This document shows, piece by piece, positions 18,456 through 32,760 of a DNA stretch of 64,000 nucleotides; the first letter of the stretch is position 1; every line of letters starts with the position of its first letter. Source of the stretch: Blastococcus litoris (GTDB taxonomy: Bacteria > Actinomycetota > Actinomycetes > Mycobacteriales > Geodermatophilaceae); assembly GCF_003075095.1 (NCBI RefSeq), contig NZ_QCZF01000002.1, positions 372,001 to 436,000 on the forward strand. Reading direction: 5' to 3'. The notes under the pieces are model-generated. The model was not told the DNA's origin and made no database searches. It was given only the letters and a program-made list of their open reading frames with translations. Made by a program: the position numbers and the translations under genes.

Positions 18456-18854
18456 TCAGGAGTTCGGCGGCTCGTCCTTGCCCTCTTCCTCGAGCCGGTC
18501 GGCCTCCTCCTTGGTCGTGTGCACGGCGCCGTCGGCGTGCTCCGGGGGCCCGTACACGGTGTAGAGGATCAGCGGGTTCTGGCCGGTGTTGAGGAAGTTG
18601 TGCTTCTTGCCCGCAGGCACGACGACGAGGTCGCCCTGGGCCACGGCCTTCTCCGAGCCGGAGATGACCGCCTTCCCGGTGCCGCTCACGAAGGTGAGGA
18701 TCTGGTCCACCTCGTGGACCTCCTCGCCGATCTCGCCGCCCGGAGGGATCGTCATGATGACCAGCTGGGTGTGCTCGCCGGTCCAGAGGACCCGGCGGAA
18801 GTCCGGGCTCTTCTCGGCCTCGGTGGCGATCGTGTAGTGGATGACGGACGCCAT
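18456..18854 (-). CDS. Cupin domain protein
   Basis: A 132-residue single cupin beta-barrel. Motif 1 is IGEEVHEVDQILTFVSGTG (H-x-x-x-Q replaces the usual H-x-H, with the later E), and motif 2 is GDLVVVPAGKKHNFLNTG (P-x-G...H). The metal-binding residues are therefore only partly canonical. A Lys/Glu-rich C-terminal tail follows. Cupins range from isomerases to dioxygenases and storage proteins; function cannot be assigned. ATG at 18854 with GAGAGGAGCG upstream. Confidence 0.8.
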   Translation of the reverse strand: MASVIHYTIATEAEKSPDFRRVLWTGEHTQLVIMTIPPGGEIGEEVHEVDQILTFVSGTGKAVISGSEKAVAQGDLVVVPAGKKHNFLNTGQNPLILYTVYGPPEHADGAVHTTKEEADRLEEEGKDEPPNS

Positions 18855-18943: not shown

Positions 18944-20206
18944 TCACCCGTGCGGTGGAACCGTCCGGCCGGACCGCGAGCGCAGCAGGCCACCGAGGAC
19001 CAGCAGGACGGCGGAGCCGACGGCCGTGGCGACGATCGCCACCACGGACAGCCGCCCCGCCGCTGACAGGACCTGCACGACGGCCCCCTCGACGCCCGCC
19101 GCCAGCCAGACGGCGCCGATCGCCAGCCGGTCGGACGTCGCGATCCCCGAGTAGAGCAGCAGCTGGGCGAGGGCGAGGAGCGTGCCGAGCGCGGCGAACA
19201 GCCAGGTCGCCCCGCCGAGGGTGTCGCCGTAGGCCGAGCCGCCGAGGAGCGGCATGGCGTAGGAGCCCAGCGCGGCGGTGGCCAGCGTCAGGAGGGCGCC
19301 GACCCCGCCGACCAGCGCCAGCGCCGCGGGCAGCGCCTGGCGGCGGTGCGCCTCGTCGGCGAGGCGCGGGAGGAGCACCACGCCGACCCCCTGCGGCAGC
19401 CAGAAGGCGATCTTGGTGACGATCGACCCGACGGCGTACTCGCCGGCGTCGGCGGGGGCGAGGTGGTGACGGGCCAGCAGCAGGTCCAGGTTGAGCAGGA
19501 GCACGAACCCGAGCAGCGCACCCGAGGCCCTGAGCGCCGCCACCAGCGGGCCCCGGACGCCACGGGTCAGCCCGGGCCGCCCGCACCCGGCCCAGCCGGC
19601 CAGCGCCCCGGCGGCCACGGCGAGGGTCATCCCGGCCAGCGCGGCGGTAGGGGTGCCCCCGACCACCAGGCCACCGACGCCCCCGACCAGCTTGGCGAGG
19701 CCGTAGGACGCGTTGACGGTGGCCAGCCGGCCGTACCGCTCGCTGCCCTGCAGCATCCCGAGGTAGCCGGGGATCAGCGTCGAGGGCAGCAGCAGGGCGA
19801 CCAGCCAGGCGACGGCCGCCGGATCGGACAGGTGGAGGAGCCGGCTCAGCGGGACGGCGGCCAGCACGCCGCACCCCACCACCAGCAGTCCCGTCACCCA
19901 CGCCGCGGCGTGCAGGCGGGCGAGCACCGCGGGCGGACGTCCCCCCGCCGAGCCGCCGAGGTGCAGGGCGGCTGCCGTCTGCAGCCCCGTGGCCGGCACC
20001 GTGCCCACGAGCAGCACGCTGAGCAGGGCGGCGAGCTCCCCGAACGCGGCGGGCGCGAGCAGGCGGGCGGCCAGGACGGTGAAGACGTAGGCCAGCGCGT
20101 TGGTCGCGAGGAACGCCGCGGACACCAGTGCCGCCGGGCCGAGCAGCCGCGCCGGCGGTGCCTCGGGCAGCGCGCCGTCGACCGGCCGGATGAGCGGGTC
20201 AGCCAC
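18944..20206 (-). CDS. Polysaccharide flippase-like membrane protein
   Basis: A 420-residue protein with about 12 transmembrane helices, similar in layout to the polysaccharide transporter (MOP/Wzx-type) flippases: LLGPAALVSAAFLATNALAYVF at the N-terminus with the ARLLAPAAFGELAALLS segment typical of the family, and a second repeat half from ~215. Flippases move lipid-linked glycans across the membrane. It starts with GTG at 20206, divergent by 70 bp from the large membrane protein, at one edge of the envelope-glycan locus, which suits a role in exporting a lipid-linked sugar intermediate. The substrate is inferred only from context. Confidence 0.75.
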   Translation of the reverse strand: MADPLIRPVDGALPEAPPARLLGPAALVSAAFLATNALAYVFTVLAARLLAPAAFGELAALLSVLLVGTVPATGLQTAAALHLGGSAGGRPPAVLARLHAAAWVTGLLVVGCGVLAAVPLSRLLHLSDPAAVAWLVALLLPSTLIPGYLGMLQGSERYGRLATVNASYGLAKLVGGVGGLVVGGTPTAALAGMTLAVAAGALAGWAGCGRPGLTRGVRGPLVAALRASGALLGFVLLLNLDLLLARHHLAPADAGEYAVGSIVTKIAFWLPQGVGVVLLPRLADEAHRRQALPAALALVGGVGALLTLATAALGSYAMPLLGGSAYGDTLGGATWLFAALGTLLALAQLLLYSGIATSDRLAIGAVWLAAGVEGAVVQVLSAAGRLSVVAIVATAVGSAVLLVLGGLLRSRSGRTVPPHG

Positions 20207-20276
20207 GACCGCCCCCTACGCTGCGCCTCGGTCGGCAACCCGGCCGGGACCGACCAGGGGCGGACAGGGGACGAGT

Positions 20277-22016
20277 GTGGACGGCGGCTGGACCCGACCG
20301 GAACCCTCCCCGTGGCCGGCCCGCGTCCTGGCCCTGGTGGCCGCCCTGCTGGTGACCGGCCCAGCGCTGGCCCCGGGGTTCGTGCTGCTCCGCGACATGG
20401 TGTTCGTGCCGCGGCAGGACCTCGACCTCGACGCACTCGGGCTCGGCGGCGGGCTGCCGCGCGCGGTGCCGGCCGACGGCGTCATGGCGCTGGTGACCAC
20501 GGTGGTGCCGGGCCAGCTGGTGCAGAAGGCGGTGCTCCTCGGCCTGGTCTACGCCGCGGTGCTCGGCGCCGCCCGGCTCGTACCGCCGGGCCCCGACGGC
20601 CGGCGGGGCATCGCCGCCGCGGTGGCCGGCCTGGTCTACGGCTGGAGCCCCTACGTCGCCGAGCGGCTGCTCATCGGCCACTGGAGCCTGCTGCTCGCGT
20701 ACGCGGCGCTGCCCTGGATCGCCCGTGCCGCGCTGCGCGTCCGGGCCGCCGAACCCCGGGCGCTGCCGCGGCTGCTGCTCGCCTGCGCGCCGGCCACCCT
20801 GACCCCGACCGGCTCGCTGCTCGCGGCCGGTGTCGTGCTCGCCCTCGCCGGACGACGCCGGGCTCTCCTCGCCGGCGGCGGCGTGCTGGTGCTCTCCCTG
20901 CCCTGGATCGTCGCCGGTGCGCTGCACCCGGCCGGCGGCGTCTCCGACCCGGCGGGCGTCGCCGCCTTCGCCGTCCGCGGCGAGGGCCCGGGCGGGGCGC
21001 TGCTCGCGCTGCTCGGCACCGGGGGCATCTGGAACGCCGGCGCCGTGCCCGGCAGCCGGGGTTCGACGCTGCTGCCGCTGGTCACGCTGCTGCTGGTGGC
21101 GCTGGCCGTCGTCGGCTGGTCGGCCCGCGGCGCGCTGCGCGGACCGGGCCTGCGGCTGGTCCTCCTCGGCGTCGGCGGGCTGCTGCTCGCCCTCGCCGGG
21201 ACGGTGCCCGGCACCCGCGAGCTGCTGGAGGTCCTCGTCCGCACGGTCCCGGGTGCCGGCCTGCTGCGCGACGGGCAGAAGTGGATCGCCTGGTGGGCGC
21301 TGCCGCTGGCCCTGGGTGCCGGTCTGGGAGCCCGCCGGGTCGCCGGGGCGGCCGGCCGGCGGGCCGCCGTCCCGGGTGCGGCCGCCCTGGTCGGCGCGGC
21401 CGCGGTGCTCCTGCCGATCGTCGCCGTCCCCGATCTCGTGTGGGGCGTCGGCGGACGCCTGCACGCGGTCGACTACCCGGACGACTGGCAGCGGGTGCGG
21501 CAGGCGCTGGCCGGCGATCCGCACCCCGGCGACGTCCTCGTGCTGCCCTTCGGCGCCTACCGGGCCTTCGACTGGAACGACGACCGGCCGCAGCTGGACC
21601 CGGCCCCCCGCTGGCTGCCACGCCCCGCCGTCACCGACGACACGCTGCCGGTCGACGGCCGGACGGTGGCCGGGGAGGACCTGCGTGCCCGAGCGGTCGC
21701 AGCCGCGGCCGACGATCCCGAGGCGCTCGCGGAGCTGGGCATCGGCTGGGTGCTGGTCGAGGAGGGCACCCCGGGGCCGGCGGTGCCCGGCGAGGTGAGC
21801 GACCTGCCGCTGGTCGTCGACGGCGCCGACCTGGATCTCCACCGCGTCCCGGGAGCCCGTCCGGGGCCGGAACCCTCGCCCGTACGGGTGACCGCGGTAG
21901 TGGGAATTCACGCCTGCTGGCTGGCGGTCGTGACCGGTTCGCTGTTGTGGATCACGACGTTGCCCTCTAGCGTCACGCTCCGTCGTCGCCCTCCACGGAA
22001 GCGAGTTCCCGAATGA
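20277..22016 (+). CDS. Large polytopic membrane protein, Rv0226c-like
   Basis: A 579-residue protein with about 12 hydrophobic helices in the first ~390 residues, then a soluble ~150-residue domain containing YPDDWQRVRQALAGDPHPGD and VLVLPFGAYRAFDWNDDRP, and one last helix near 555. It resembles GT-C-type glycosyltransferases and the M. tuberculosis Rv0226c membrane protein, which is also next to a GT4 gene and a DUF3068 gene. That synteny is the main basis for the call; catalytic residues are not clear. Start GTG at 20277 (the overlapping GTG at 20275 is out of frame). Its last 4 bases overlap the DUF2613 gene (ATGA), and its C-terminus contains the latter's putative promoter. Confidence 0.65.
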   Translation: MDGGWTRPEPSPWPARVLALVAALLVTGPALAPGFVLLRDMVFVPRQDLDLDALGLGGGLPRAVPADGVMALVTTVVPGQLVQKAVLLGLVYAAVLGAARLVPPGPDGRRGIAAAVAGLVYGWSPYVAERLLIGHWSLLLAYAALPWIARAALRVRAAEPRALPRLLLACAPATLTPTGSLLAAGVVLALAGRRRALLAGGGVLVLSLPWIVAGALHPAGGVSDPAGVAAFAVRGEGPGGALLALLGTGGIWNAGAVPGSRGSTLLPLVTLLLVALAVVGWSARGALRGPGLRLVLLGVGGLLLALAGTVPGTRELLEVLVRTVPGAGLLRDGQKWIAWWALPLALGAGLGARRVAGAAGRRAAVPGAAALVGAAAVLLPIVAVPDLVWGVGGRLHAVDYPDDWQRVRQALAGDPHPGDVLVLPFGAYRAFDWNDDRPQLDPAPRWLPRPAVTDDTLPVDGRTVAGEDLRARAVAAAADDPEALAELGIGWVLVEEGTPGPAVPGEVSDLPLVVDGADLDLHRVPGARPGPEPSPVRVTAVVGIHACWLAVVTGSLLWITTLPSSVTLRRRPPRKRVPE

Positions 22017-23299
22017 AGACCCTGATCGCCGTGCTGATCTCCCTCGGCGGAGGCACCGCGCTCGGCGTCGCTGCCGTCGCCGGCGTGCAGGCCTCCCTCG
22101 ACCCCGACAACTCCATCCAGGAGACGGGCAACGAGACGATCAACGTCCTGGACTACGGCGACCGGGGCTGACCCCGGAGCGGCCGGCCCGACCGGCCGCA
22201 CGGCGGAGGCGAGCACCGCGGCGAAGGCCCGGATGCTCGCCCGCCAGCTGAAGGCAGCAGCGTGACGGGCCGCCGCCTCGCCCATGGCGAGGCGGCGGTC
22301 CTCGTCTGCCAGCAGGAGCTCGACCGCGGTGGTCAGCTCGTCGAGGTCGTCGACCAGCAGGCCGGTGCGCCCGTCGACGACCGACTCCCGCAACCCGCCC
22401 GCGGAGCGGTAGCCCACGGTCGGGACGCGGTGCGAGCCGGCCTCCGTGACGACGAGCCCCCACCCCTCCTTGACCGAGGGGCACAGGTGCACCCATGCGC
22501 GGGCGAGCTCCTCGTGCTTGGTCTGCTCGTCGACGTGCCCGGTGAAGTCCACGACGTCGTCGACGCCGAGTTCGATCGCCCGGGCCCGCAGCTCGGCGTC
22601 CCACCAGCCCTCGCCGACGACGGACAGGCGCAGCCCCGGCCACCGGTCGCGCAGCCGGGCCACGACCTCGATGGCGTGCTCGACCCGCTTGTGCGGCACC
22701 AGGCGGCCCAGGACGACCAGCCGCGGCGTCGGGCTCGGCACGGCCGTCACGGGCGGCGGCGGCTCGACGCCGTTGCGGACCACGGTCAGGCGCTCGGCGT
22801 CGACCCCGAGCCCGACCAGCTCGTCGGCCGTCGCCGTAGAGACCGTGACGTAACGGCTCCGGCGGTAGAGCCTGGGCGCGAGCACGCTCTCCAGCCACCA
22901 GCCGACCGCACCGCCGAGGCGGCCGAAGACGATCGGCCACTGCTCCCGGTGGACGTGGTGGACGAGGTTGACGACCGGCTGCCGGGTCACCAGCGTGCTG
23001 CCGAACGGGAGGCCGTTCTGGACGTCGACGACCAGGTGGGGCCGGTGGCGGATCACGTGCAGGAGCGCGCGCGGGTAGACGCTGAGCCGACCGCCCCGGC
23101 GCACGATGCGGACGCCGCCGACGACGTCCTCCGCCGGCGCCCGGTCGTGGGCGGCGCAGAACATCGCGACGGCGAGACCGGCACCCACCAGCCCTTCGGC
23201 CATGCGGTGCACGTAGCGTTCGGAGCCCCCGCCTTCGGGGTGGGTGATGTCCCGCCAGTTGACGAACAGGACATCGATCGGCGTTGATCGAATGCGCAC
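21908..23299 (-). CDS. GT4 family glycosyltransferase with abnormal C-terminal extension
   Basis: A glycosyltransferase of the GT4 (GT-B fold) family, similar to Rv0225. The N-terminal acceptor domain starts with VLFVNWRDITHPEGGGSERYV; the nucleotide-sugar domain from ~190 has RLVVLGRLVPHKRVEHAIEV, the conserved VHLCPSVKEGWGLVVTEAG (E-x7-E type donor site) and VGYRSAGGLRESVVDG. The recognisable domain ends near residue 375 at RAFAAVLASAV. The frame then stays open for ~86 residues of Gly/Asp-rich sequence that is simply the antisense of the DUF2613 gene and the end of the preceding membrane gene. GTG start at 23299. Either the native stop has been lost or there is a base error near 22170-22200. 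Confidence 0.8.
   Translation of the reverse strand: MRIRSTPIDVLFVNWRDITHPEGGGSERYVHRMAEGLVGAGLAVAMFCAAHDRAPAEDVVGGVRIVRRGGRLSVYPRALLHVIRHRPHLVVDVQNGLPFGSTLVTRQPVVNLVHHVHREQWPIVFGRLGGAVGWWLESVLAPRLYRRSRYVTVSTATADELVGLGVDAERLTVVRNGVEPPPPVTAVPSPTPRLVVLGRLVPHKRVEHAIEVVARLRDRWPGLRLSVVGEGWWDAELRARAIELGVDDVVDFTGHVDEQTKHEELARAWVHLCPSVKEGWGLVVTEAGSHRVPTVGYRSAGGLRESVVDGRTGLLVDDLDELTTAVELLLADEDRRLAMGEAAARHAAAFSWRASIRAFAAVLASAVRPVGPAAPGSAPVAVVQDVDRLVARLLDGVVGVEGGLHAGDGSDAERGASAEGDQHGDQGLHSGTRFRGGRRRSVTLEGNVVIHNSEPVTTASQQA
21945..21973 (+). promoter_or_regulatory. Putative promoter for the DUF2613 gene
   Basis: TTGTGG at 21945-21950, a 17-nt spacer, and TAGCGT at 21968-21973, ending 39 nt before the DUF2613 ATG. 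It lies inside the 3' end of the upstream membrane protein gene and antisense to the extended glycosyltransferase frame. Confidence 0.4.
22013..22171 (+). CDS. DUF2613-type small secreted/membrane peptide
   Basis: A 52-residue protein with one N-terminal hydrophobic helix (MKTLIAVLISLGGGTALGVA, continuing AVAGVQASL) and a short acidic tail ending in NVLDYGDRG. Size, glycine-rich helix and the Tyr-Gly-Asp/Ser-Arg-type ending match DUF2613 peptides, exemplified by Rv0236A, the small protein next to aftD in M. tuberculosis. Function is unknown; it may be a membrane-anchored accessory of the arabinosyltransferase machinery. ATG at 22013 overlaps the upstream stop, with GGAAGCGAG as ribosome site. 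A GC-rich hairpin follows the stop. It lies wholly antisense to the tail of the GT4 reading frame. Confidence 0.7.
   Translation: MKTLIAVLISLGGGTALGVAAVAGVQASLDPDNSIQETGNETINVLDYGDRG
22179..22199 (+). terminator. Hairpin downstream of DUF2613 gene
   Basis: GCGGCCGG at 22179-22186 pairs perfectly with CCGGCCGC at 22192-22199 around a 5-nt loop, 7 nt after the DUF2613 stop. It marks a likely transcript end and falls where the convergent glycosyltransferase would be expected to finish. Confidence 0.55.
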
Positions 23300-23370
23300 C
23301 GCGGGAGACTACCCCCGGGTAACAACGGGCCCGCAGGCCTTGTCACCGCAAAGAAGGGGGTCCGGGCGGA

Positions 23371-24096
23371 ATGGCGCGTACCGCAACTGTGAGCCGTTCG
23401 GTCGCCCTCTTCCGTGCATTTCTCGTCGAGCAGACCGACCCCGATCACTTCTACGGCGTGCTGGCGGCGGACTCCGTGCGGCAGCTGGGCGAGCACGTCC
23501 GCCTCGACGGGGCACAGGTGCTCGACGTCGGGGGAGGGCCGGGGTACTTCGCCGAGGCGTTCCGGGGAGCGGGTGCCCGCTACGTCGGCCTCGAGCCGGA
23601 CGCCGGCGAGATGGTGGCGCGCGGCGAGCCGGAGCCCGGCACGGTCCGGGGGAGCGGCGAGGCCCTGCCCGTGCGGACGGCGGCGGTCGACGTCTGCTAC
23701 TCGTCGAACGTCCTGGAGCACGTCCGGTCGCCGTGGTCGATGACCGCAGAGATGGTTCGCGTGACCCGGCCGGGGGGCACGATCTTCCTGTCCTTCACCC
23801 CCTGGTGGTCGCCCCACGGTGGGCACGAGACCGCGCCCTGGCACTACCTCGGGGGGCACCGGGCGGCCCGCAGGTACCGGCGGCGCACCGGGCGCGAGCC
23901 GAAGAACCGCTTCGGGACGTCGCTCTTCCCGGTCTCGATCGGCGCCGCGCTCCGCTGGGCGCGGAACTGCCCCGACGTGGACGTGGTGGCCGCCTACCCG
24001 CGCTACCACCCGTGGTGGGCGCGGTGGGTGCTCGCCGTCCCCGGGCTCCGGGAGGTCGTCTCCTGGAACCTCGTCGTGGTGATGCGGCGCCGCTGA
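23371..24096 (+). CDS. SAM-dependent methyltransferase, Rv0224c-like
   Basis: A 241-residue class I methyltransferase. Motif I is VLDVGGGPGYFAEAFRGAGA (~50-69), the acidic end of beta2 is YVGLEPDAGEM, motif post-I/II includes AAVDVCYSSNVLEHV, and motif III follows at RVTRPGGTIFLSFTPWWSP. The methyltransferase-11 domain is followed by an unusual Trp/His/Arg-rich region (TPWWSPHGGHETAPWHYL) and AYPRYHPWWARWVL, also found in Rv0224c-type proteins. It probably methylates a glycolipid or sugar acceptor, inferred from its place beside the GT4 gene, from which it diverges. ATG at 23371. Confidence 0.8.
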   Translation: MARTATVSRSVALFRAFLVEQTDPDHFYGVLAADSVRQLGEHVRLDGAQVLDVGGGPGYFAEAFRGAGARYVGLEPDAGEMVARGEPEPGTVRGSGEALPVRTAAVDVCYSSNVLEHVRSPWSMTAEMVRVTRPGGTIFLSFTPWWSPHGGHETAPWHYLGGHRAARRYRRRTGREPKNRFGTSLFPVSIGAALRWARNCPDVDVVAAYPRYHPWWARWVLAVPGLREVVSWNLVVVMRRR

Positions 24097-24110
24097 CCGC
24101 GCGGGGTCGT

Positions 24111-24176
24111 TCACCCCTGGGGGTGACTCGTTCACCCTGGTACCGCGCCGTATCGGCTCGTTGATACCGCTCCGTA
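24111..24176. repeat. Palindrome and direct repeats upstream of DUF3068 gene
   Basis: A perfect 16-nt palindrome TCACCCCTGGGGGTGA at 24111-24126, then two 12-nt direct repeats TACCGCGCCGTA at 24141-24152 and TACCGCTCCGTA at 24165-24176, 24 nt apart (about two helical turns) on one DNA face. They lie just upstream of the probable -35 at 24187, a good position for an activator or repressor site. Confidence 0.5.
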
Positions 24177-24186
24177 CCAACCGGGA

Positions 24187-24215
24187 CTGGACACCGGCCT
24201 ACTCGCCAGTAGTGT
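24187..24215 (+). promoter_or_regulatory. Putative promoter of the DUF3068/AftD-like genes
   Basis: CTGGAC at 24187-24192, 17-nt spacer, TAGTGT at 24210-24215, about 54 nt before the DUF3068 start, immediately downstream of the repeats at 24111-24176. Confidence 0.35.
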
Positions 24216-24268
24216 TGCGGCGCTGCGACGCAAAGGTGCAGTCGCGACGAGCTTGAGGAGCAATGGGC

Positions 24269-25249
24269 ATGCGTGGACGCGCCATCGGGCTGGGGCTGCT
24301 GGGTCTGGGAGCGTTCCTGCTCGCCGCCGCGCTCGCCGTCCGGCTGTTCCTGGAGCCGGCGCTGGTCAAGTACCCGCTCGACCAGACGGCCAGCCCCACC
24401 GCCCAGGGCACCGACATCGAGTACTTCGACCTCGCTGCCGGTGAGCAGCTGAGCGGCCTCGAGGCCGACGTCCGCCAGCAGGTCCAGGGCGACCCCTCGT
24501 CGGAGGCGGCCTCCGACGACGTGGCGGTCTGGAACTTCGGGTCCACGATCACCGCCACGGACGGCACCCTGCTCAACGCCGGCACCTACCGCGTGTGCCT
24601 CGACCGTCGCGAGGCCGTCGCCGTCGAGTGCGACGTCGACCACGTCGACTACGACGACGACGTCTCCGTCGAGGGCCTGACGCTCACCTTCCCCTTCGGC
24701 ACGGAGCAGAAGGACTACGACGTCTTCAACTCCACGACCCGGCAGGCCTGGCCGGCCACGTTCGAGGGCGAGGAGGAGCTCGGCGGCCTGGACGTCTACC
24801 GCTTCGTGCAGCGCATCCCCGAGACCGTCATCCGCACCACCGACGTCCCGGCTGCCCTGGTCGGGTCGGACGCGGGCGGCACCGTCTCCGCCGACGTCGT
24901 CTACAGCAACGAGCGCACGATCTGGGTCGAGCCGACCAGCGGCGTCATCGTGACCTCCGAGGAGCGCCCGAACACGGTGCTGGTGGGTCCGGACGGCGAC
25001 GAGGCGGCCACCATCCTGGCCGGGACCTTCGCCGGTGACGAGGACACCATCGCTGCCGGGGTCGAGCGCGCCGAGGACATCGGCGGGCAGATCTCCATGG
25101 TCAAGACCGTGCTGCCGCTCGTGCTGCTCCTTCTCGGCCTGGTCCTGGTGGCCCTGGGGCTGTTCCTGACCCTGCGCGCCACGCCGCGGCGGCCCGGTGC
25201 CCACCAGGCGTCCACGACCGAGCTCGAGCCGGTGGGCACCACCCGCTGA
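24269..25249 (+). CDS. DUF3068 / PorA-family membrane protein, Rv0227c-like
   Basis: A 326-residue protein anchored by an N-terminal helix (~5-25) and a C-terminal helix (~275-300), with a ~250-residue extracytoplasmic beta-rich domain between them. The domain has LVKYPLDQTASPTAQGTDIEYFDL at the start and QAWPATFEGEEELGGLDVYRF, TIWVEPTSGVIVTSEER towards the end, a pattern characteristic of DUF3068 proteins (porin PorA family in database naming). Mycobacterial Rv0227c is the reference homologue; function is not established. ATG at 24269 is preferred over 24263 because GAGGAG at 24255-24260 is 8 nt away. Followed by a hairpin and the AftD-like gene, with which it is probably co-transcribed. Confidence 0.85.
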   Translation: MRGRAIGLGLLGLGAFLLAAALAVRLFLEPALVKYPLDQTASPTAQGTDIEYFDLAAGEQLSGLEADVRQQVQGDPSSEAASDDVAVWNFGSTITATDGTLLNAGTYRVCLDRREAVAVECDVDHVDYDDDVSVEGLTLTFPFGTEQKDYDVFNSTTRQAWPATFEGEEELGGLDVYRFVQRIPETVIRTTDVPAALVGSDAGGTVSADVVYSNERTIWVEPTSGVIVTSEERPNTVLVGPDGDEAATILAGTFAGDEDTIAAGVERAEDIGGQISMVKTVLPLVLLLLGLVLVALGLFLTLRATPRRPGAHQASTTELEPVGTTR

Positions 25250-25254
25250 CGCCC

Positions 25255-25278
25255 GGGGCCGGCGTCGCCGCCGGCCCC
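25255..25278 (+). terminator. Intercistronic hairpin between DUF3068 and AftD-like genes
   Basis: GGGGCCGGCG at 25255-25264 pairs perfectly with CGCCGGCCCC at 25269-25278 around a 4-nt loop. It lies between the DUF3068 stop (25249) and the AftD-like GTG (25294), so it may attenuate expression of the very long downstream gene. Confidence 0.5.
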
Positions 25279-25293
25279 TGACTCCTGGAACAC

Positions 25294-28200
25294 GTGACCG
25301 CATCTCTCACCCGGACGGCCGGCGCAGATCCTGCGCCGGCCGTTCCGGCTGCCCCGCCCCCGCCCGGGGACCCGGGTCAGGACGGCGGGTGGAGCGCTCG
25401 GCTGCTGCACCGCCTCCGGCTCGGCGCGGTCCTCCTCGCCTTCCTCGGGCTGTCGCTGAACCAGCAGCCCGGCCAGATCGTGGCCGACACGAAGCTCGAC
25501 CTCGCCGTCGACCCGTCCGGGTTCCTCGGCCGGGCGCTCCTGCTGTGGGAGCCCGAGGGCTTCGCGGGGCAGGTGCAGAACCAGGCATACGGCTACCTGT
25601 TCCCGATGGGGCCGTTCTTCGGCCTCGGGAACGCCATGGGCATCCCCACCTGGGTCGTGCAGCGGCTGTGGTGGACCGCCCTGTTCGCCGTCGCCTTCCT
25701 CGGGGTGATGGCGCTCGCCCGGCGGTTGGAGCTCGGTACCGACGCCACCCGGATCGTGGGTGCGCTGGCCTACGCCCTGGCACCCCGCATGGTCAGCGGC
25801 ATCGGGCTCACCTCGGTCGAGATGATCCCGATGGCGCTGGCCCCGTGGGTGCTGGTGCCCCTGGTGTCCGGCGCCCGGACGGGCTCGCCCCGCCGGGCGG
25901 CGGCGCTGTCGGGGGTCGCCGTCTTCTGCGTCGGCGGGGTCAACGCCGTCGCCACCGCGGCGGTCCTGCCCCTCGCCGCCCTGTGGTTGCTGACCCTCCC
26001 GGGCGGCCCCCGGAAGCGCCGGCTGATCGGGTGGTGGGTGGTCTCCGTCGGGCTCGCCACGGCCTGGTGGGTCGGGCCGCTGCTCCTCCTCGGCCGGTTC
26101 AGCCCCGACTTCCTCGACTACATCGAGACCGCGGCGACGACGACCGGCGGCAACGAACTGGTGCAGGTGCTCCGCGGCACCACCCAGTGGGTGGCCGGCC
26201 TCGGCGGACCGTACGGCCCGACGTGGCCCGCCGGCTGGGACCTGCTGCACGAGGTGCTCCCCGTGGCCGGCACGGTCGTCGTGGCGACCGCGGGTCTGGT
26301 CGGGCTGCTCCGGCGTGACCTGCCGCACCGCCGCTGGCTGGTCCTGGGTCTCCTCGCCGGGGTGGTGCTGGTGTCGGCCGGGCACGTCGCGGCCGTCGAG
26401 GGCGCCGGTGCCGGCGCGATCCGCGAGCTGCTGGACTCCGCCCTCGCGCCGCTGCGCAACCTGCACAAGTTCGACCCGGTGCTCCGTCTGCCGCTGGTGC
26501 TGGGGATGGTCCACCTGCTCGGCGTCCTCCTCGCGGCCGCCACCCGCCGCCGGGACCGGGACCGCCCGCCGGGCCCGCCGCCGGCTCCGCGGGGCCGGCG
26601 CCGCTCGTCCGCTGTCCGCCTCGCGTGCGCGACGCTCGTCGGGCTGGTCCTGGCCGGCGTGGCCGCGGCGGCGCAGCCGGCCGTCGACGGGCGCCTCGTC
26701 CCGCCGACGGGCTTCCAGGACATCCCCGGCTACTGGCGGGAGACCGCAGCCTGGCTGGCCGCGGACGACGCCGCCGGCCGGGCGCTGCTCGTGCCCGCCT
26801 CCTCCTTCGGCACGTACCTCTGGGGGAGCACCGGCGACGAGCCGATGCAGCCGCTGGCGGACTCCCCGTGGGACGTGCGGAACGCGATCCCGCTGACGCC
26901 CACCGGCCACATCCGTGCCCTGGACGCGGTGGAGGAGCGGCTGGGGCGGGGAGAGGGGTCGGAGGCGCTCACCCGCTTCCTCGCCCGGTCGGGCTACTCG
27001 CACGTGGTCGTCCGCAACGACCTCGACGCACCGGCCGCGAAGACGTCCCGCCTCGCTCTCGTCCACCAGGCGCTCGCGTCCTCACCAGGCATCGAGCGCG
27101 TCGCCGCGTTCGGGCCCGAGCTGTTCGGGGGGAACGGCCTGTCGGGCACCGTCACCGACGGTCGTGCCGACAGCCCCGTGCCCGCCGTCGAGGTCTTCGC
27201 CGTCCCGGACGTCGCGCCGACCGCCTACACGGTCCCCGTCGCGGACGCCGTCGAGGTGGTCGGCGGCCCCGACGGCGTGCTGGCGCTCGAGGAGCACGGG
27301 CTGCTCCACGACCGGCCCGCCGTCATCGCCGGCGACGGTGCCGTGGCCGGGGGCGGCACCCTGGTCAGCGACGCGCTCCAGCGACGCGAGCGGACCACCG
27401 GTGCCATCACGGCAGCCGCCTCCGCCGGGCTGACTGCCGACGATCCGCTGAGGCTGGGCCGGCCGGCCCGGGACTACCTGCTCGACGACCACGCCGCCAA
27501 CGAGTCGGTGGTGCGCATCGGGGGCGCGCGGGTCACCGCATCCAGCTCGGGTGCCGACGCGGACAACAGCCAGGGGGTCCGCCCGGGAGAGCACCCCTTC
27601 GCCGCCGTCGACGGCGACCCCGCGACGGCGTGGCGTCCGGCGCCGCAGGACGGCCCGGTCCGGGCCTGGTGGGAGGTCGAGCTGGCCCGCCCGTTCGCGG
27701 AGGGCGCGGTCACCGTCGTGCTCGACGAGGCGACGGCCTCGGATCCGCCCGCCCGTCTGCGGGTCGTGACCGACGAGGGCAGCTCCGTCGTCCGGCTGCA
27801 GGAAGGAGCGCGGGTCGTCCGCATCGAGCTCCCGGAGGGGGAGACCCGGACCCTCCGGCTCGTCGCGGAGCCCCGCACCGGCTCGGACCAGCTGACGTTC
27901 GGGCTGGCCGAGGTGCGCCTGCCCGGGGCCGACGTCTCCCGGACCGTGGACCTGCCGTCGGTCGCGGCCGGCGGGCGAGCCGTGGAGGGGTTCGCGTTCG
28001 ACGCGGCGAACCCGGCGGCCTACGGGTGCGTGACCGACGCCGACGGCCGGCCACGGTGCCAGCCGTCGCTGGTGGCGGCCGCCGAGGAGCCCCTGGGACT
28101 GGCCCGGACCTTCACGGTGCCGTCGTCCGACAGCTACGGGATGTCCGTCTCCGTGCGGCCCCGGCCCGGTGCGGAGCTGGACGGGCTCGTCGCGTCCGCC

Positions 28201-29529
28201 GCCGGCGGGCTGCGGGCGGAGGTGAACGGCTCACTGGTGCCCGACCCCCGGGCCGGCGCGTGGGCGGCCGTCGACGGCGACCCGGACACGGCCTGGCTCG
28301 CGGAGCCCGGCACCCGGGAGAGCCTCACCGTGAGCTGGTCGGAGCCCCGGAGGATCAGCGAGGTCCGCCTCCGGTACACCGAGGGGACGGCGGCCTCACG
28401 CCCCGTGGTCGTCACGGTCCGGGCGGGGGACGTGGAGCGCCTGGTCCAGCTCGACCGGCGAGGCGTCGCCACCTTCCCCGGGGTCGTCACCGACACGGTC
28501 ACGGTCGACTTCTCGACCCGCGCGAAGCTCTCCAGCATCGACACCTACGGCGGGACGCGGACCGAACTCGGTGTGGGCGTGAGCGAGCTGGAGGTGCGGG
28601 GTGTCGAACCGCTCGACCTCACCGCGCCGGTCGAGGTCCCGTGCGGCGAGGGGCCGGAGGTCGTCGTCGACGGGGTGCGGCACCAGACGTCCGTGCGGGC
28701 CACCGTCGGCGACCTGCTCGCGCTCGCGCCGGTGCGGCTCACCTTCTGCTCCGGGTCGGGGAGCACGGCCGGTCTGCTCGCCGGGCGGCACACGTTCGTC
28801 GCGGAGAGCACGTCCGCCTTCACGGTGGAGTCCGCCACGCTCGACGCGGGCGTCGCCTCCTCGGGCGCGCAGACCCGCGACCCGGTGCAGGTGCAGCGGT
28901 GGGACCCCGAGCACCGGGCGCTCCAGGTCGACGCGCGAACCGCGAGCACGCTGCTGGTCGTGCCGGAGAACGTCAACGCGGGGTGGCGTGCCACCCTCCA
29001 GGGGCGCGAGCTCGAGGCGGTCCAGGTCGACGGGTGGCAGCAGGGCTACGTCCTGCCCGCGGGGGCGGCCGGGGTCGTCCGCCTGGACTTCGCACCCGGT
29101 GACCTCTACCGCGGTGCCCTGGTCGCCGGTGGCGTGGCGCTGCTCCTGCTGGCCGCCCTGGCGCGGTTCCCGGTGCGGGGGTCGGCGGGGGAGCACCCGC
29201 CGGTCGGGCGCCCGGGACGGCGCTCCGGCGTCGTCACGGTGGGGGCGGCCGCGGTTCTGCTCGTCCTCCTCGGCGGCTACTGGGCACTGCTCGCCCTGCT
29301 CGGGGTGGGCGCCCTCGCCGCGCTGGTCCCGACCCGGCAGCGGGTGCTGACGGTGGTCGCGGCCCTCGCCCTGGTCGCCGCGGGTGCGCTGCTGGCGGCC
29401 GGCCCCGGTATGGAGCCGGTGCGTCAGGTGCTGGCGCTCACCGCGCTGGCGGCCCTGGTCGTCTCGCTGGTGAGCTCGTCCGGGTCCTGGGCGCTCTCCC
29501 GCCGGGGACCCCGGCGCCGGGACGCCTGA
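25294..29529 (+). CDS. aftD: AftD-like alpha-(1->3)-arabinofuranosyltransferase (DUF3367)
   Basis: A 1411-residue GT-C enzyme, matching the length of mycobacterial AftD (~1400), which adds arabinofuranose from decaprenyl-phosphoarabinose to cell-wall arabinan. The N-terminal GT-C domain has helices from ~43 to ~560 and the first-loop motif IVADTKLDL (Asp65, Lys67), followed by FLGRALLLWEPEGF and QNQAYGYLFPMGPFF, which are AftD hallmarks. Two discoidin/F5-8-like carbohydrate-binding domains lie at ~735-870 (PFAAVDGDPATAWRP) and ~970-1100 (WAAVDGDPDTAWLAEPG); about four helices close the protein at 1272-1408. GTG start at 25294 with a weak ribosome site. The 3' end overlaps the convergent acyltransferase by 106 bp. 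That the product is arabinan in this organism is an inference. Confidence 0.85.
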   Translation: MTASLTRTAGADPAPAVPAAPPPPGDPGQDGGWSARLLHRLRLGAVLLAFLGLSLNQQPGQIVADTKLDLAVDPSGFLGRALLLWEPEGFAGQVQNQAYGYLFPMGPFFGLGNAMGIPTWVVQRLWWTALFAVAFLGVMALARRLELGTDATRIVGALAYALAPRMVSGIGLTSVEMIPMALAPWVLVPLVSGARTGSPRRAAALSGVAVFCVGGVNAVATAAVLPLAALWLLTLPGGPRKRRLIGWWVVSVGLATAWWVGPLLLLGRFSPDFLDYIETAATTTGGNELVQVLRGTTQWVAGLGGPYGPTWPAGWDLLHEVLPVAGTVVVATAGLVGLLRRDLPHRRWLVLGLLAGVVLVSAGHVAAVEGAGAGAIRELLDSALAPLRNLHKFDPVLRLPLVLGMVHLLGVLLAAATRRRDRDRPPGPPPAPRGRRRSSAVRLACATLVGLVLAGVAAAAQPAVDGRLVPPTGFQDIPGYWRETAAWLAADDAAGRALLVPASSFGTYLWGSTGDEPMQPLADSPWDVRNAIPLTPTGHIRALDAVEERLGRGEGSEALTRFLARSGYSHVVVRNDLDAPAAKTSRLALVHQALASSPGIERVAAFGPELFGGNGLSGTVTDGRADSPVPAVEVFAVPDVAPTAYTVPVADAVEVVGGPDGVLALEEHGLLHDRPAVIAGDGAVAGGGTLVSDALQRRERTTGAITAAASAGLTADDPLRLGRPARDYLLDDHAANESVVRIGGARVTASSSGADADNSQGVRPGEHPFAAVDGDPATAWRPAPQDGPVRAWWEVELARPFAEGAVTVVLDEATASDPPARLRVVTDEGSSVVRLQEGARVVRIELPEGETRTLRLVAEPRTGSDQLTFGLAEVRLPGADVSRTVDLPSVAAGGRAVEGFAFDAANPAAYGCVTDADGRPRCQPSLVAAAEEPLGLARTFTVPSSDSYGMSVSVRPRPGAELDGLVASAAGGLRAEVNGSLVPDPRAGAWAAVDGDPDTAWLAEPGTRESLTVSWSEPRRISEVRLRYTEGTAASRPVVVTVRAGDVERLVQLDRRGVATFPGVVTDTVTVDFSTRAKLSSIDTYGGTRTELGVGVSELEVRGVEPLDLTAPVEVPCGEGPEVVVDGVRHQTSVRATVGDLLALAPVRLTFCSGSGSTAGLLAGRHTFVAESTSAFTVESATLDAGVASSGAQTRDPVQVQRWDPEHRALQVDARTASTLLVVPENVNAGWRATLQGRELEAVQVDGWQQGYVLPAGAAGVVRLDFAPGDLYRGALVAGGVALLLLAALARFPVRGSAGEHPPVGRPGRRSGVVTVGAAAVLLVLLGGYWALLALLGVGALAALVPTRQRVLTVVAALALVAAGALLAAGPGMEPVRQVLALTALAALVVSLVSSSGSWALSRRGPRRRDA

Positions 29530-30686
29530 GGGGGCACCAGCGACCGGAGACGCCGGACAGGGCGCTCGACCAGCACGTAGCAGACGGCGGCCAGCACGGT
29601 GCCGCCGATCCAGGTGACGATCGCGACGAACCAGAACCGGCCGGTGAAGGGCTGCCAGCCCAGCAGGTGGTACAGGCCGACGAGCAGCGGCATGTGGAAC
29701 AGGAACAGGCCGTACGAGGTCTCGGCCAGCACGCGTGCCGCCCGGCCGCCGAGCACCTCGCCGGGGACCCCGAGCGGCCGCCGGTGCAGCACCAGCGGAG
29801 CGACGAGGAGCACGCCGACGCCCATGTAGAGCAGGTTCTTCGTCACCGCCTCCACCGAGGACGGGTCCTCGAGGGTGAGCGGGCCGGCGACGGGACTGCA
29901 GGCGACCCAGAAGAGCGCTCCGGCCAGCGCCCAGCAGGTCCACGCGTTCGAGGCGACGTCGCGCACTCCGCGCACGAGCGGCCAGGCGTCATCGCACAGG
30001 GAGAGGACGGCCAGCGCCATGCCGCCGGCGAACCAGGAGAGGAACGCGGGCAGCCAGACGTTCAACGAGCTGCCGGTCGACTGGACCTGCCAGACCACGG
30101 CCACCCATGCGGCGCCCAGGACGGCCAGGGCCGCCAGCCCGGCGAGGATCCGCGCCGGCCGCCAGCCACCGGCCAGCCGGAGCAGCCCCGCGACCAGCAG
30201 CGGCAGCAGCAGGTAGAAGGTGACCTCGGTGCACATGCTCCACAGGTGGGTCAGCCCCGCGGCGTCGGGCTCGGAGTCGTAGATCTGCACCAGGAGCAGG
30301 TGCCGGACCCAGTCGCCGGCCCCCGCCGAGTCGTTGCCCGGCAGGAAGGCCAGGGCCGCGACGACGGCCAGCCAGTACGCGGGCAGGATCCGCAGGCCGC
30401 GGCGCCACAGGTAGGCCGCCGCCCGCGGGGCCCGCTGGCCCCGCGCGGCGGCCTGGAAGAACGGCCTGCCCAGCAGGAAGCCCGACAGCACGAAGAAGAT
30501 CGCCACCCCCACGTCGAGGCGGGCCAGGGCGCGGTCGGCGGGCAGGCTGGGGTCGGTCCCCGTCCAGAACGAGGCGTGCGTGAGGACCACGGCGGTGGCA
30601 GCGAGCACCCGGATGCCGTCCAGGCCGGGGAAGGCGCGTTCCGTCCGGCCGGCGGCACCGCCGTCCGGGGTAACCGATGCGGTCAC
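29424..30686 (-). CDS. Acyltransferase 3 family membrane protein, Rv0228-like
   Basis: A 420-residue AT-3 acyltransferase with about ten transmembrane helices. It begins with the family signature FPGLDGIRVLAATAVVLTHASFW (catalytic-type His in the first helix region), has VAIFFVLSGFLLGRPFF and a RRGLRILPAYWLAVV block, and ends near FVAIVTWIGG/VCYVLVERPVRR. Such enzymes O-acylate extracytoplasmic glycans or lipids (acetyl, succinyl and others). Rv0228 occupies the equivalent place in M. tuberculosis. TTG, GTG or ATG choice is open; the start used is at 30686. The last ~35 residues (Arg/Ser/Thr-rich) are encoded antisense to the 3' end of the AftD-like gene. Confidence 0.82.
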   Translation of the reverse strand: MTASVTPDGGAAGRTERAFPGLDGIRVLAATAVVLTHASFWTGTDPSLPADRALARLDVGVAIFFVLSGFLLGRPFFQAAARGQRAPRAAAYLWRRGLRILPAYWLAVVAALAFLPGNDSAGAGDWVRHLLLVQIYDSEPDAAGLTHLWSMCTEVTFYLLLPLLVAGLLRLAGGWRPARILAGLAALAVLGAAWVAVVWQVQSTGSSLNVWLPAFLSWFAGGMALAVLSLCDDAWPLVRGVRDVASNAWTCWALAGALFWVACSPVAGPLTLEDPSSVEAVTKNLLYMGVGVLLVAPLVLHRRPLGVPGEVLGGRAARVLAETSYGLFLFHMPLLVGLYHLLGWQPFTGRFWFVAIVTWIGGTVLAAVCYVLVERPVRRLRSLVPPQASRRRGPRRESAQDPDELTSETTRAASAVSAST

Positions 30687-30867
30687 TCGGGCTCCCTCTC
30701 ACCGGTCACGATCCCGAGCAGGATATGCGGGGGCGCCGGTACCGCACAGACGCCCCACCCGAGCGGAGGAACGCCGGTCTCACCCGGCTGGGCGCCCGTT
30801 TCCCCGGATCCGCGCCATTCCGGGCGTCGGCGTGCCTACACTCCCTCGGCCGACCGAGGGGAGAACC

Positions 30868-32760
30868 GTGGCGCACGCAGGGGATGTGCCGGTGCTGGAG
30901 CGTGCCCGGGTCGTCCCGGACGGTCCTGGACCGGACCGCTCCGGAGCGGGATCCCGTCGGTGGCGGGGCAGCCGTCTGCTGCTGGCCGGTGTGGTGCTCC
31001 TACTCCTCCTCCAGCTCGCGGTGCGCATCTGGATGGTGAGCCGCCGCGGGCTGTACGGCGACGACCTGCACTACGGGGTCCGTGCCCTGGAGCTGCCGCT
31101 GTTCTCCGCGGACCTGCTGCTCGAGCAGCACGGCGGCCACTTCATGCCCGGCGCGCTGCTGATGGACGCCCTCCTCACCCGGGTGGCGCCGCTCGAGTGG
31201 TGGCCGCTGGCCGCCGCGCTGATCGTCCTGCAGGCCGTCGCATCCCTGGTCGTGCTCCGCCTGCTCCGGTTGCTGGTCGGCGACCGGGCGGTCCTCCTGC
31301 TGCCGTTCGCGGTCTACCTCTTCTCCCCGCTCAACCTCGGCTTCTTCGCGTGGTGGTCGGCGGCCATGAACTCCCTGCCGCTGCAGATCGGCCTGGCGTG
31401 GGTCCTCGGCGACGCCGTGCAGTTCCTGCGCACGGGCCGGCGGCGGTACGTCGTCACCGGCACGGTGGCGGTCGCGGTCACCCTGCTGTTCTACGAGCGG
31501 GCGGTGCTGGTCCCCCTCGTGGCGTTCGGTCTGGTCGCCGTGCTGCTGTCCGTGGGGCGGCCGGGCATGGCGCTGGGCGAGGCATGGCGGCGCTGCCGTC
31601 CGCTCTGGCTGGGCTGCCTCGGCGTGGTGGCCGTGTGGCTGTGGGCGTTCACCAGCAGCGTGCCGTCGGAGGTGGTGGGCTCCGCGACGGTGTCCCAGGT
31701 GGCGGGTACGACGCAGGCGACCCTGCGGGCTCCTCTCTCCTCGCTGCTCGGCGGTCCCTGGGCCTGGACGAGCGGCCCTCCGGACACGCCGCACATCGCG
31801 CCGCCAGGAGCGCTGGTCGTGGCCGCCGTGCTCGCCCTCGGCGTGCTCGTCGTCTGGACGTCGGTGCGTCGCGAGGGCGCCGGTGCCCTCTGGATGCTCC
31901 TGGGTGGCTACCTGCTCGCCGGTGCCGTGCTCGTCGCGCTCGGCCGGGGCATCTTCGGCACGGGCGAGCTGCTGCCGCTGACCTACCGCTACCACGCGGG
32001 CGAGGTCGTGCTCCTCGCCGTCGTCCTGGGGCTGGTCGCGGTGCTCCCGCGGCGCGGGTCCGGCGCGGCGCCGCTGGACGTGGACGAGCCGGCACGGACG
32101 GACGACCGGCACGGCACCCCGGCCCGCGTGGCGGTGCTGGTGCTGACCGGCGCCTTCCTGGTGAGCTCGCTGGTCAGCACCGTCACCTACGTCGATCTCT
32201 GGGGGGAGCACCGGACGACGGACTACCTCGCGACCGTCGAGGCGAGCATGGCCGGAGCGGCCGACGGTGAACCGCTGCTCGACCAGCCCGTGGCCGAGGA
32301 CGTGCTCAACGGCCTCTTCTACCCGAGCAACCAGATGTTCCGGCTGTTCGAGCCCCTGCCGCAGCGACCCGAGTTCGCGGAGGCGACGCACGACCTGCGG
32401 ATGCTCGACGACGCGGGGCAGCTGCGGCCGGCCCGGGTCGAGCCCGGCATCGAGCTGGCCGACGGCCCCGAGCCCTCCTGCGGGTGGGCGGTTCCCAGCG
32501 GCGGGACGGTCTCCGCGGCGCTGGACGGCCCGGTGTTCGACTGGGTCTGGACGGCGGAGCTGGCCTACGAGGCCGACCGCGACGGCGTCATCACGGTGTC
32601 ACTGGGTTCGGACTCGGTGAGCGCCCCCGTCCGGCAGGGGCAGCACACGGTGTACGTGCGGCTCGTCGGTGGCGGGGACGCGCTCGTCGTCGGCTCCGAG
32701 GCGGACGGCCCCGACCTGTGCCTCTCGTCCGGCGTCGTCGGGAACATCGCTCTCCGCTGA
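30868..32760 (+). CDS. Large membrane protein, putative GT-C glycosyltransferase
   Basis: A 630-residue protein with about 11 helices between ~40 and ~430 and a C-terminal soluble beta-rich domain (~470-630). The first extracytoplasmic loop holds GLYGDDLHYGVRALELPL, an acidic DD pair as in GT-C enzymes, followed by LLLEQHGGHFMPGALLMDA. No close named family is recognised. GTG at 30868 with GAGGGGAG ribosome site, and a possible -10 TACACT 30 nt upstream. Position beside the acyltransferase and AftD-like genes suggests it takes part in building the same envelope glycan, perhaps using a polyprenyl-phosphate sugar; that is inference. Confidence 0.6.
   Translation: MAHAGDVPVLERARVVPDGPGPDRSGAGSRRWRGSRLLLAGVVLLLLLQLAVRIWMVSRRGLYGDDLHYGVRALELPLFSADLLLEQHGGHFMPGALLMDALLTRVAPLEWWPLAAALIVLQAVASLVVLRLLRLLVGDRAVLLLPFAVYLFSPLNLGFFAWWSAAMNSLPLQIGLAWVLGDAVQFLRTGRRRYVVTGTVAVAVTLLFYERAVLVPLVAFGLVAVLLSVGRPGMALGEAWRRCRPLWLGCLGVVAVWLWAFTSSVPSEVVGSATVSQVAGTTQATLRAPLSSLLGGPWAWTSGPPDTPHIAPPGALVVAAVLALGVLVVWTSVRREGAGALWMLLGGYLLAGAVLVALGRGIFGTGELLPLTYRYHAGEVVLLAVVLGLVAVLPRRGSGAAPLDVDEPARTDDRHGTPARVAVLVLTGAFLVSSLVSTVTYVDLWGEHRTTDYLATVEASMAGAADGEPLLDQPVAEDVLNGLFYPSNQMFRLFEPLPQRPEFAEATHDLRMLDDAGQLRPARVEPGIELADGPEPSCGWAVPSGGTVSAALDGPVFDWVWTAELAYEADRDGVITVSLGSDSVSAPVRQGQHTVYVRLVGGGDALVVGSEADGPDLCLSSGVVGNIALR

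Follow-up and report, generated by a model that had tools for sequence, protein, structure and literature searches.

What does a block of genes familiar from the cell envelope of mycolate bacteria do in an actinobacterium outside that group? The block lies in the 64,000-nucleotide stretch of Blastococcus litoris analysed here, hereafter the window (contig NZ_QCZF01000002.1, positions 372,001 to 436,000 of the forward strand), where nine genes between positions 18944 and 32760 include those for AftD, MmpA and the DUF3068 protein PgfA (also LmcA). We conclude that this is probably an ancient, diversifying actinobacterial locus for assembling and decorating an envelope glycan, of which the mycobacterial and corynebacterial region would be one specialised descendant, later co-opted. 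The genes are as follows.

18944..20206, minus strand: flippase (FLIP) of the Wzx/MATE-like polysaccharide type, 420 amino acids
20277..22016, plus strand: MmpA, GT-C glycosyltransferase-like membrane protein, 579 amino acids; reading frame open from 20100
22013..22171, plus strand: DUF2613 small membrane peptide, 52 amino acids, overlapping the MmpA stop
21908..23299, minus strand: GT4 cytosolic glycosyltransferase, conserved part about 22190-23299
23371..24096, plus strand: S-adenosylmethionine methyltransferase at an MtrP-like position, 241 amino acids; PF08241, 59.8 bits
24263..25249, plus strand: PgfA/LmcA (DUF3068), periplasmic lipid-binding-type protein, 328 amino acids
25294..29529, plus strand: AftD, GT-C domain and carbohydrate-binding modules, 1411 amino acids
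29424..30686, minus strand: acyltransferase-3 membrane protein at a TmaT-like position; PF01757, 96.7 bits
30580..32760, plus strand: GTC, GT-C fold protein with a DD-type motif and a C-terminal beta domain

The gene kinds that an earlier note had named from the letters alone (flippase, DUF2613 peptide, GT4, methyltransferase, DUF3068, AftD-like protein, acyltransferase and GT-C-like protein) all lie at these positions, and its "membrane protein" is also present, corrected here to MmpA on the plus strand with a likely GTG start at 20277. PgfA matches NCBIfam NF053601 at 272.1 bits (cut-off 160), PF11271 (DUF3068/PorA) at 263 bits and the LmcA structure 7n3v in the PDB at E 2.1e-15; GT4 matches PF00534 at 107 bits. 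The DUF2613 peptide passes the PF11021 cut-off (23.7 versus 22.1 bits) and stands at the same place of the locus in relatives; a search of 119 loci gave 17 such matches, all but one in Geodermatophilaceae (some genomes twice; identity at most 90%). The window flippase itself has no Pfam match, and 4 of 17 aligned members of its family match PF01943. Chance open reading frames (ORFs) were ruled out by these profile scores and by synteny, since many genomes carry the set in a corresponding neighbourhood. A contaminant contig was also ruled out, the flanks being 70-98% identical to those of family relatives and genome contamination 0.86%.

The host genome (4.63 Mb, 99.96% complete, a draft of 87 contigs) was searched for enzymes of mycolate and arabinogalactan synthesis, using mycobacterial queries confirmed as AftB, GlfT2, Pks13, DprE1 and UbiA. 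No Pks13 was found at E<=1e-30 among the 25 of 35 first-look candidates scored. Across a 22-genome panel the Pks13 query, 1521 of 1782 residues with its identity confirmed, was matched over almost its full length only in three mycolate genomes. With no Pks13, a mycolate genome was ruled out, as the earlier note had supposed in placing the locus outside the mycolate group; its view of a Geodermatophilaceae-type genome is likewise supported by AftD identity, the nearest named AftDs (among the best 80 of 197 matches) being those of Blastococcus at 68-69% identity. Nor were the arabinan enzymes found whose search the note had recommended: the window genome gave no match for EmbABC (PF14896, PF04602) or AftA (PF12249), with C. 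glutamicum controls positive for both, and none for AftB in a protein search in which mycolate genomes were positive. For GlfT2, only an unconvincing 20.7-bit fragment was found, mycolate genomes again being positive.

Outside the window genome, PF04602 occurs in 3 of the 22 panel genomes, all in family f2, in a panel without Blastococcus; the "mycolate" label of f2 is based on three tested members with Emb and two with Pks13. PF12249 was found in 4 of 27 genomes (three mycolate, plus a weak 33-bit match in G082) and AftB in 6 of 27 (three mycolate, Pseudonocardia humida and two Streptomyces-type). The 26 genomes besides that of the window include 13 with long GlfT2 matches (39-100% identity), some of which are perhaps other galactofuranosyltransferases. 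Candidatus Blastococcus massiliensis encodes an Emb-family protein (L146:14522-17488, PF04602 241 bits) beside dprE1-dprE2-ubiA-PAP2, and the window genome is without it. Because of this protein Emb is, as judged by its sequence, not confined to mycolate bacteria.

The locus is not new as a gene set. In mycolate bacteria it is already described as the tmaT/mtrP/mmpA/lmcA locus, to which AftD is added here: the C. glutamicum NCgl2759-2765 locus comprises TmaT, LmcA, MmpA, a glycosyltransferase and MtrP, with aftD near (PMC8698533, PMC7775120), and the order acyltransferase-PgfA-MmpA-GT4-methyltransferase is seen in mycobacterial loci L101 and L108. The window genes belong to the same families as this locus and the Rv0224c-Rv0228 region, which also has aftD near; the earlier note had drawn the comparison with Rv0224c-Rv0228 and missed the described locus. 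PgfA and MmpA exceed their NCBIfam cut-offs. Unlike the locus of Corynebacterium and Mycobacterium, that of the window sits in a host without a Pks13 or Emb match, holds AftD within the cluster, carries GTC and a flippase as extras (the flippase also in some mycolate loci), and is of a type that diversifies at one site within its family.

The locus of the window is not special to its genome but is spread over non-mycolate Actinomycetota. AftD was found in 36 of 246 genomes phylum-wide (35 over cut-off), scoring above 700 bits in f5, f7 and f8, three families of class level outside mycolate-type f2, and in 146 of 298 genomes order-wide (143 over cut-off). Carriers named among the best 80 of 197 matches, from which identities to named AftDs are also taken, are Pseudonocardia, Micromonospora, Actinoplanes, Jiangella, Nocardioides, Aeromicrobium, Pedococcus, Knoellia and Streptomyces. 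Around 89 AftD loci, window queries at E<=1e-6 recovered, as lower bounds, GT4 in 78, PgfA in 71, MmpA in 69, the acyltransferase in 68, the flippase in 64, the methyltransferase in 59 and GTC in 30; in mycobacterial loci L011, L102 and L109 nothing but AftD was recovered, probably owing to flanks that stop too early. In a tree of 124 AftD rows (123 and the window; 5 of 128 dropped on length or coverage, and the G516 AftD left out), the mycolate AftDs form one clade of 13 rows. Separately, in distant Actinomycetota families (L022, L027, L029) two AftD-like genes stand in tandem, with GT4 near in L022 and L029; none of the three matched the window queries for PgfA or MmpA.

In the portions of the literature available to our searches, one of which was unspecific, we found no account of the locus outside mycolate bacteria; DUF3068 proteins are reported from actinobacteria generally (PMC9678360). 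The describers of MmpA state that it has no homologs beyond corynebacteria and mycobacteria (PMC8698533), a claim that is contradicted by the matches reported here. The statement that the aftD region is syntenic throughout Corynebacteriales (PMC6034362) looks too narrow.

Three products of the locus are predicted GT-C enzymes. MmpA (Rv0226c/NCgl2761 family) scores 531.6 bits against NF053599, "MmpA family trehalose lipid delivery protein", whose equivalog cut-off is 210; the likely start gives 579 residues, the median ORF length of 69 ortholog matches. Structure prediction gave a GT-C fold, not a transporter fold, and the loop-1 Asp is invariant. MmpA is thus predicted to be a GT-C glycosyltransferase-like protein, where its describers noted partial AftD similarity and assigned no catalytic domain (PMC8698533). 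It differs from the MmpA of mycolate bacteria in that no mycolate substrate is expected in the window host; such a substrate is unlikely because there is no Pks13.

These families might instead export an acylated glycolipid other than a mycolate, with MmpA, PgfA and the acyltransferase acting as in trehalose-mycolate transport on another lipid. MmpA and PgfA do lie far over their NCBI equivalog cut-offs, the acyltransferase occupies the tmaT position, and PgfA is implicated in trehalose monomycolate trafficking (PMC9678360). We nevertheless think this improbable, given the absence of Pks13, the predicted GT-C fold and invariant loop-1 Asp of MmpA, the lack of any MmpL-type domain in a scan of ten ORFs in and next to the locus, and the presence of AftD, GT4, GTC and a polysaccharide-type flippase, which point to a glycan.

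The second enzyme, GTC, had been called GT-C-like in the earlier note; it has no Pfam match, and its predicted model (726 residues) indeed takes the GT-C fold. Its true start probably lies downstream of 30580, since the first ~111 residues are modelled with a confidence score (pLDDT) below 50. PDB sequence searches with profiles of MmpA, GTC and the flippase returned no match, and a search of a viral fold library with GTC gave nothing useful.

AftD matches PF11847 over its N-terminal GT-C domain at 782.5 bits (cut-off 26; E 3.2e-235), followed by the binding modules PF24607 (CBM_AftD, 74 bits) and PF00754 (40.6 bits). Residues 43-1383 align with the mycobacterial AftD structure 6wbx, and E is ~1e-204 for 6wbx and 6w98. 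The comparison of active sites that had been advised found the loop-1 Asp conserved: D65, within DTKLDL, aligns with that of mycobacterial AftD, and over 86 aligned rows the position holds D in 83, E in 2 and a gap in 1. By analogy with GT-C enzymes, it would be the catalytic residue. The likeness thus covers the GT-C domain, the binding modules, this Asp and the conserved polar residues given below; the window copy differs from named mycobacterial AftDs in its identity of 35-38% and in belonging to a family found with or without synthesis of decaprenylphosphoryl-arabinose (DPA).

Arabinan formation as in mycobacteria draws on DPA, and the donor genes are present. In the window genome, DprE1 (712.5 bits, cut-off 500; 53% identity to mycobacterial), DprE2 (347, cut-off 250) and UbiA (390.6, cut-off 207) match NCBI equivalogs and form one cluster with a PAP2 phosphatase that is below every equivalog cut-off. 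The mycobacterial DprE1 reference used is without a cysteine at the benzothiazinone site. Absence of the DPA genes was a wrong supposition, given the DprE1 match; the dprE1/E2 search proposed in the earlier note thus found both genes, with UbiA, and neither of the outcomes it had named as fatal (a mycolate genome, or missing DPA genes with a non-conserved AftD Asp) occurred. Judging by gene content, the organism should be capable of DPA synthesis while having none of the canonical arabinan enzymes tested for (AftC was not searched). Because the DPA set is present, Emb, AftA and AftB are not found and GlfT2 is unconvincing, an arabinose-containing glycan other than canonical arabinogalactan appears plausible. 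The note's proposal of an undescribed arabinose-containing or other glycan is thus partly supported, by the DPA set and the canonical enzymes not found. Arabinose and galactose are, however, already reported from Blastococcus: in a study of whole-cell hydrolysates, each of the two sugars was present in four of five strains (PMC9686282). Micromonospora is described as arabinose-rich, a new strain in the same paper having none listed (PMC11960110), and the one Micromonospora genome tested has neither DprE1 nor UbiA; whole-cell arabinose is therefore no proof of DPA.

AftD could then simply act as in mycobacteria, extending or branching arabinan from DPA on a minimal polymer resembling arabinogalactan or lipoarabinomannan (LAM), its neighbours being linked by history only. 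The full DPA set, the conserved AftD residues and binding modules, the arabinose and galactose of Blastococcus hydrolysates (PMC9686282), a long GlfT2 match (54%) in the relative Blastococcus sp. TF02A-35 and the Emb protein beside dprE1/dprE2/ubiA in Ca. B. massiliensis are all in keeping with this. It is nonetheless unlikely, since the window genome has no AftA, EmbABC or AftB match and only the GlfT2 fragment, AftD with the same conserved residues is kept where DprE1 was not found, and Micromonospora is described as arabinose-rich, with no DprE1 or UbiA match in the genome tested.

The DPA genes and AftD indeed occur apart. With all candidates of the panel genomes scored, long DprE1 matches, sought in 25 genomes, and UbiA matches, sought in 27, fell in one and the same set of 13 (the UbiA of G104 is weak, 31%), and neither gene was found in the AftD carriers Micromonospora mirobrigensis, Paractinoplanes, Jiangella asiatica, Nocardioides szechwanensis, Aeromicrobium sp. 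Leaf350, Knoellia remsis, G082, G133 and G198. Order-wide, where at most 3 or 5 first-look candidates were scored per genome for AftD and DprE1 and some negatives are possibly misses, 91 of the 143 AftD genomes have DprE1 (64 of them in f2), 60 genomes have DprE1 without AftD and 95 have neither. Within the family, AftD and DprE1 tend to occur together: 14 of 49 genomes have both, 5 AftD only, 11 DprE1 only and 19 neither (Fisher p 0.019, without kinship correction and with genomes having neither gene and outside both listings uncounted). GTC presence shows no correspondence with DprE1 in the family by eye. At the residue level, K67, Q97, E278, R388, N389, K392, D515 and D576, chosen from the alignment and not from structure mapping, are identical in 30/30 rows from genomes with DPA genes and 15/15 from those without, and D65 is D in 27/30 (3 E) and 15/15, respectively; the rows include second copies per genome, and DPA status sometimes comes from DprE1 alone. 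No alignment column convincingly separates the two sets of rows. The Asp to Glu change lies in three rows (L106, a Streptomyces; L019; and one more) with DprE1 present. From these comparisons the retention of AftD seems not to depend on DPA, and AftD alone does not predict arabinose, because DPA genes are not found in many AftD genomes. Either AftD uses a donor common to all carriers, or carriers lacking DPA have another route to a pentofuranose donor.

In five loci the donor genes adjoin the block. The trio ubiA-dprE1-dprE2, with near full-length matches, lies between MmpA and GT4 in Aeromicrobium stalagmiti. In Nocardioides soli it stands between the flippase and MmpA genes, and in N. halotolerans it separates GT4 from the methyltransferase. 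Two Pedococcus have it upstream of MmpA, and the stretches of both show no flippase match. The AftDs of the two Nocardioides are sisters in the tree, and the in-locus trio represents at least three lineages. The position of the trio inside or beside the locus in these five cases ties DPA to some enzyme of the locus, perhaps GTC: the five loci carry 2, 2, 2, 3 and 1 GTC copies, from only three lineages with lineage-specific duplications, whereas of the other loci longer than 18 kb with at least one copy, 24 have one and 2 have two. In a Nanopelagicales genome bin (L083:3799-4668), UbiA alone stands beside the flippase, with no DprE1/E2 match in that stretch; it is a possible ribofuranose-donor version. 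Three-component pentofuranose systems of Citrobacter O antigens likewise combine donor synthesis, a flippase and a GT-C enzyme (PMC11127046). The likeness extends to a lipid-linked pentofuranose donor, a GT-C enzyme with a binding module and, in Pedococcus, Aeromicrobium and Nocardioides, the adjacency of ubiA-dprE1-dprE2 to GT-C genes. The window differs in that its donor genes are elsewhere (UbiA on contig C3), so that joint encoding is not seen, and in adding several GT-Cs, GT4, a methyltransferase, an acyltransferase and PgfA.

In its chromosomal setting, the window site resembles a surface-polysaccharide locus. The flanking genes are:

18456..18854, minus strand: cupin gene, left flank; PF07883, 58.4 bits
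33448..34860, plus strand: major facilitator superfamily (MFS) transporter gene, right flank; PF07690

In 18 other AftD-bearing genomes of the family, this MFS gene adjoins the locus in 18/18 and the cupin gene does so in 14/18; the two genes are 70-92% (MFS, 19 family loci) and 78-98% (cupin, 15 family loci) identical. Median identities, from 6 to 19 loci per gene, are 78-91% for the flanks, 77 for the methyltransferase, 67 for MmpA, 66 for GT4, 57 for the flippase, 54 for AftD, 51 for the acyltransferase and 48 for PgfA. Median GT-C domain identity is 80 for 6 Mycobacteriaceae and 75 for 17 Micromonosporaceae rows, against 62 for 20 rows of the family. In the same-genus genome G349 (L187), the flanks are 85-94% identical, MmpA 81, GT4 82 and the methyltransferase 86, and AftD is 36% identical and inverted; here and in G398 (L192), a distant, inverted AftD outside the clade of the family's other AftDs has replaced the usual one within an otherwise conserved locus. 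Tandem AftD duplicates occur in some Geodermatophilaceae (L033, L034, L198, L199). Could the block then be a horizontally moving, dispensable island without a consistent product? Its patchiness in family and genus (AftD in 3/6 sampled genomes of the window's own genus) and the AftD replacements would suit an island, but the constant chromosomal site, the conserved core gene order, the conserved residues and the intact reading frames (no internal stops in the AftD matches listed) make it very improbable.

Under the reading as an envelope-glycan locus, we infer the substrates, the order of steps and the product (donors, acyl acceptor, glycan) as follows. Within the cell, GT4 and the methyltransferase would assemble or alter a lipid-linked acceptor, and the Wzx-like flippase would export a lipid-linked intermediate or donor. 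Outside, MmpA, AftD and GTC would add sugars from polyprenyl-phosphate donors while the AftD binding modules grip the polymer; the acyltransferase would add acyl groups, and PgfA/LmcA would handle the lipid-bearing product. Because DPA should be available in this genome, D-arabinofuranose is most likely added by one or more of these three enzymes, to an acceptor other than canonical arabinogalactan. C. glutamicum lmcA nulls are without full-length lipomannan (LM) and LAM (PMC8972800), which points to a lipoglycan role.

Several points count against this reading. The mmpA, tmaT and mtrP mutants of C. glutamicum have trehalose-mycolate phenotypes with LM/LAM unaffected (PMC8698533), and we found no glycan structure or mutant for the present group. 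The window genome has its DPA genes on contig C3, apart from the locus on C2; in the order-wide sample DprE1 was not found in 52/143 AftD genomes, and the kinship-uncorrected Fisher p value is weak. Copies of the locus also differ in content: of the 89 AftD loci, 30 gave no methyltransferase match and 21 no acyltransferase match, partly through contig ends and divergence. As a more tentative extension of the reading, AftD and MmpA may be paralogous GT-Cs of a pre-mycolate envelope-glycan pathway whose lipid-linked donor was generally not DPA. Later co-option, or indirect effects of losing this glycan, would then account for the arabinosylation ascribed to AftD and the trehalose-mycolate transport ascribed to MmpA, PgfA, TmaT and MtrP, and the Geodermatophilaceae locus would be serotype-like, with a fixed site, a conserved core and exchanged outer-face enzymes.

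AftD, MmpA and PgfA are reported or predicted to be essential in mycobacteria (PMC8698533, PMC9678360, PMC6034362), and their exact reactions are still disputed. Non-mycolate carriers would allow them to be studied free of interference from a mycolate layer or arabinogalactan. Since AftD, MmpA, PgfA, TmaT and MtrP together resemble an old glycan locus of actinobacteria, the functions assigned to them in mycolate bacteria may be derived. Standard pathway schemes change if MmpA proves to be a glycosyltransferase and AftD can act without DPA. The NF053599 and NF053601 names ("trehalose lipid delivery", "lipid trafficking") fall on proteins of the Pks13-negative window genome and are probably too specific, and misnaming of MmpA and PgfA proteins is possibly spreading through these equivalog models.

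A minor feature concerns the GT4 reading frame, which is 463 amino acids long in the window against an ortholog median of 401. Its tail (21908-22190), about 90 residues beyond the conserved part, runs antisense through the DUF2613 gene, and the overrun possibly reflects a late stop or a sequence error.

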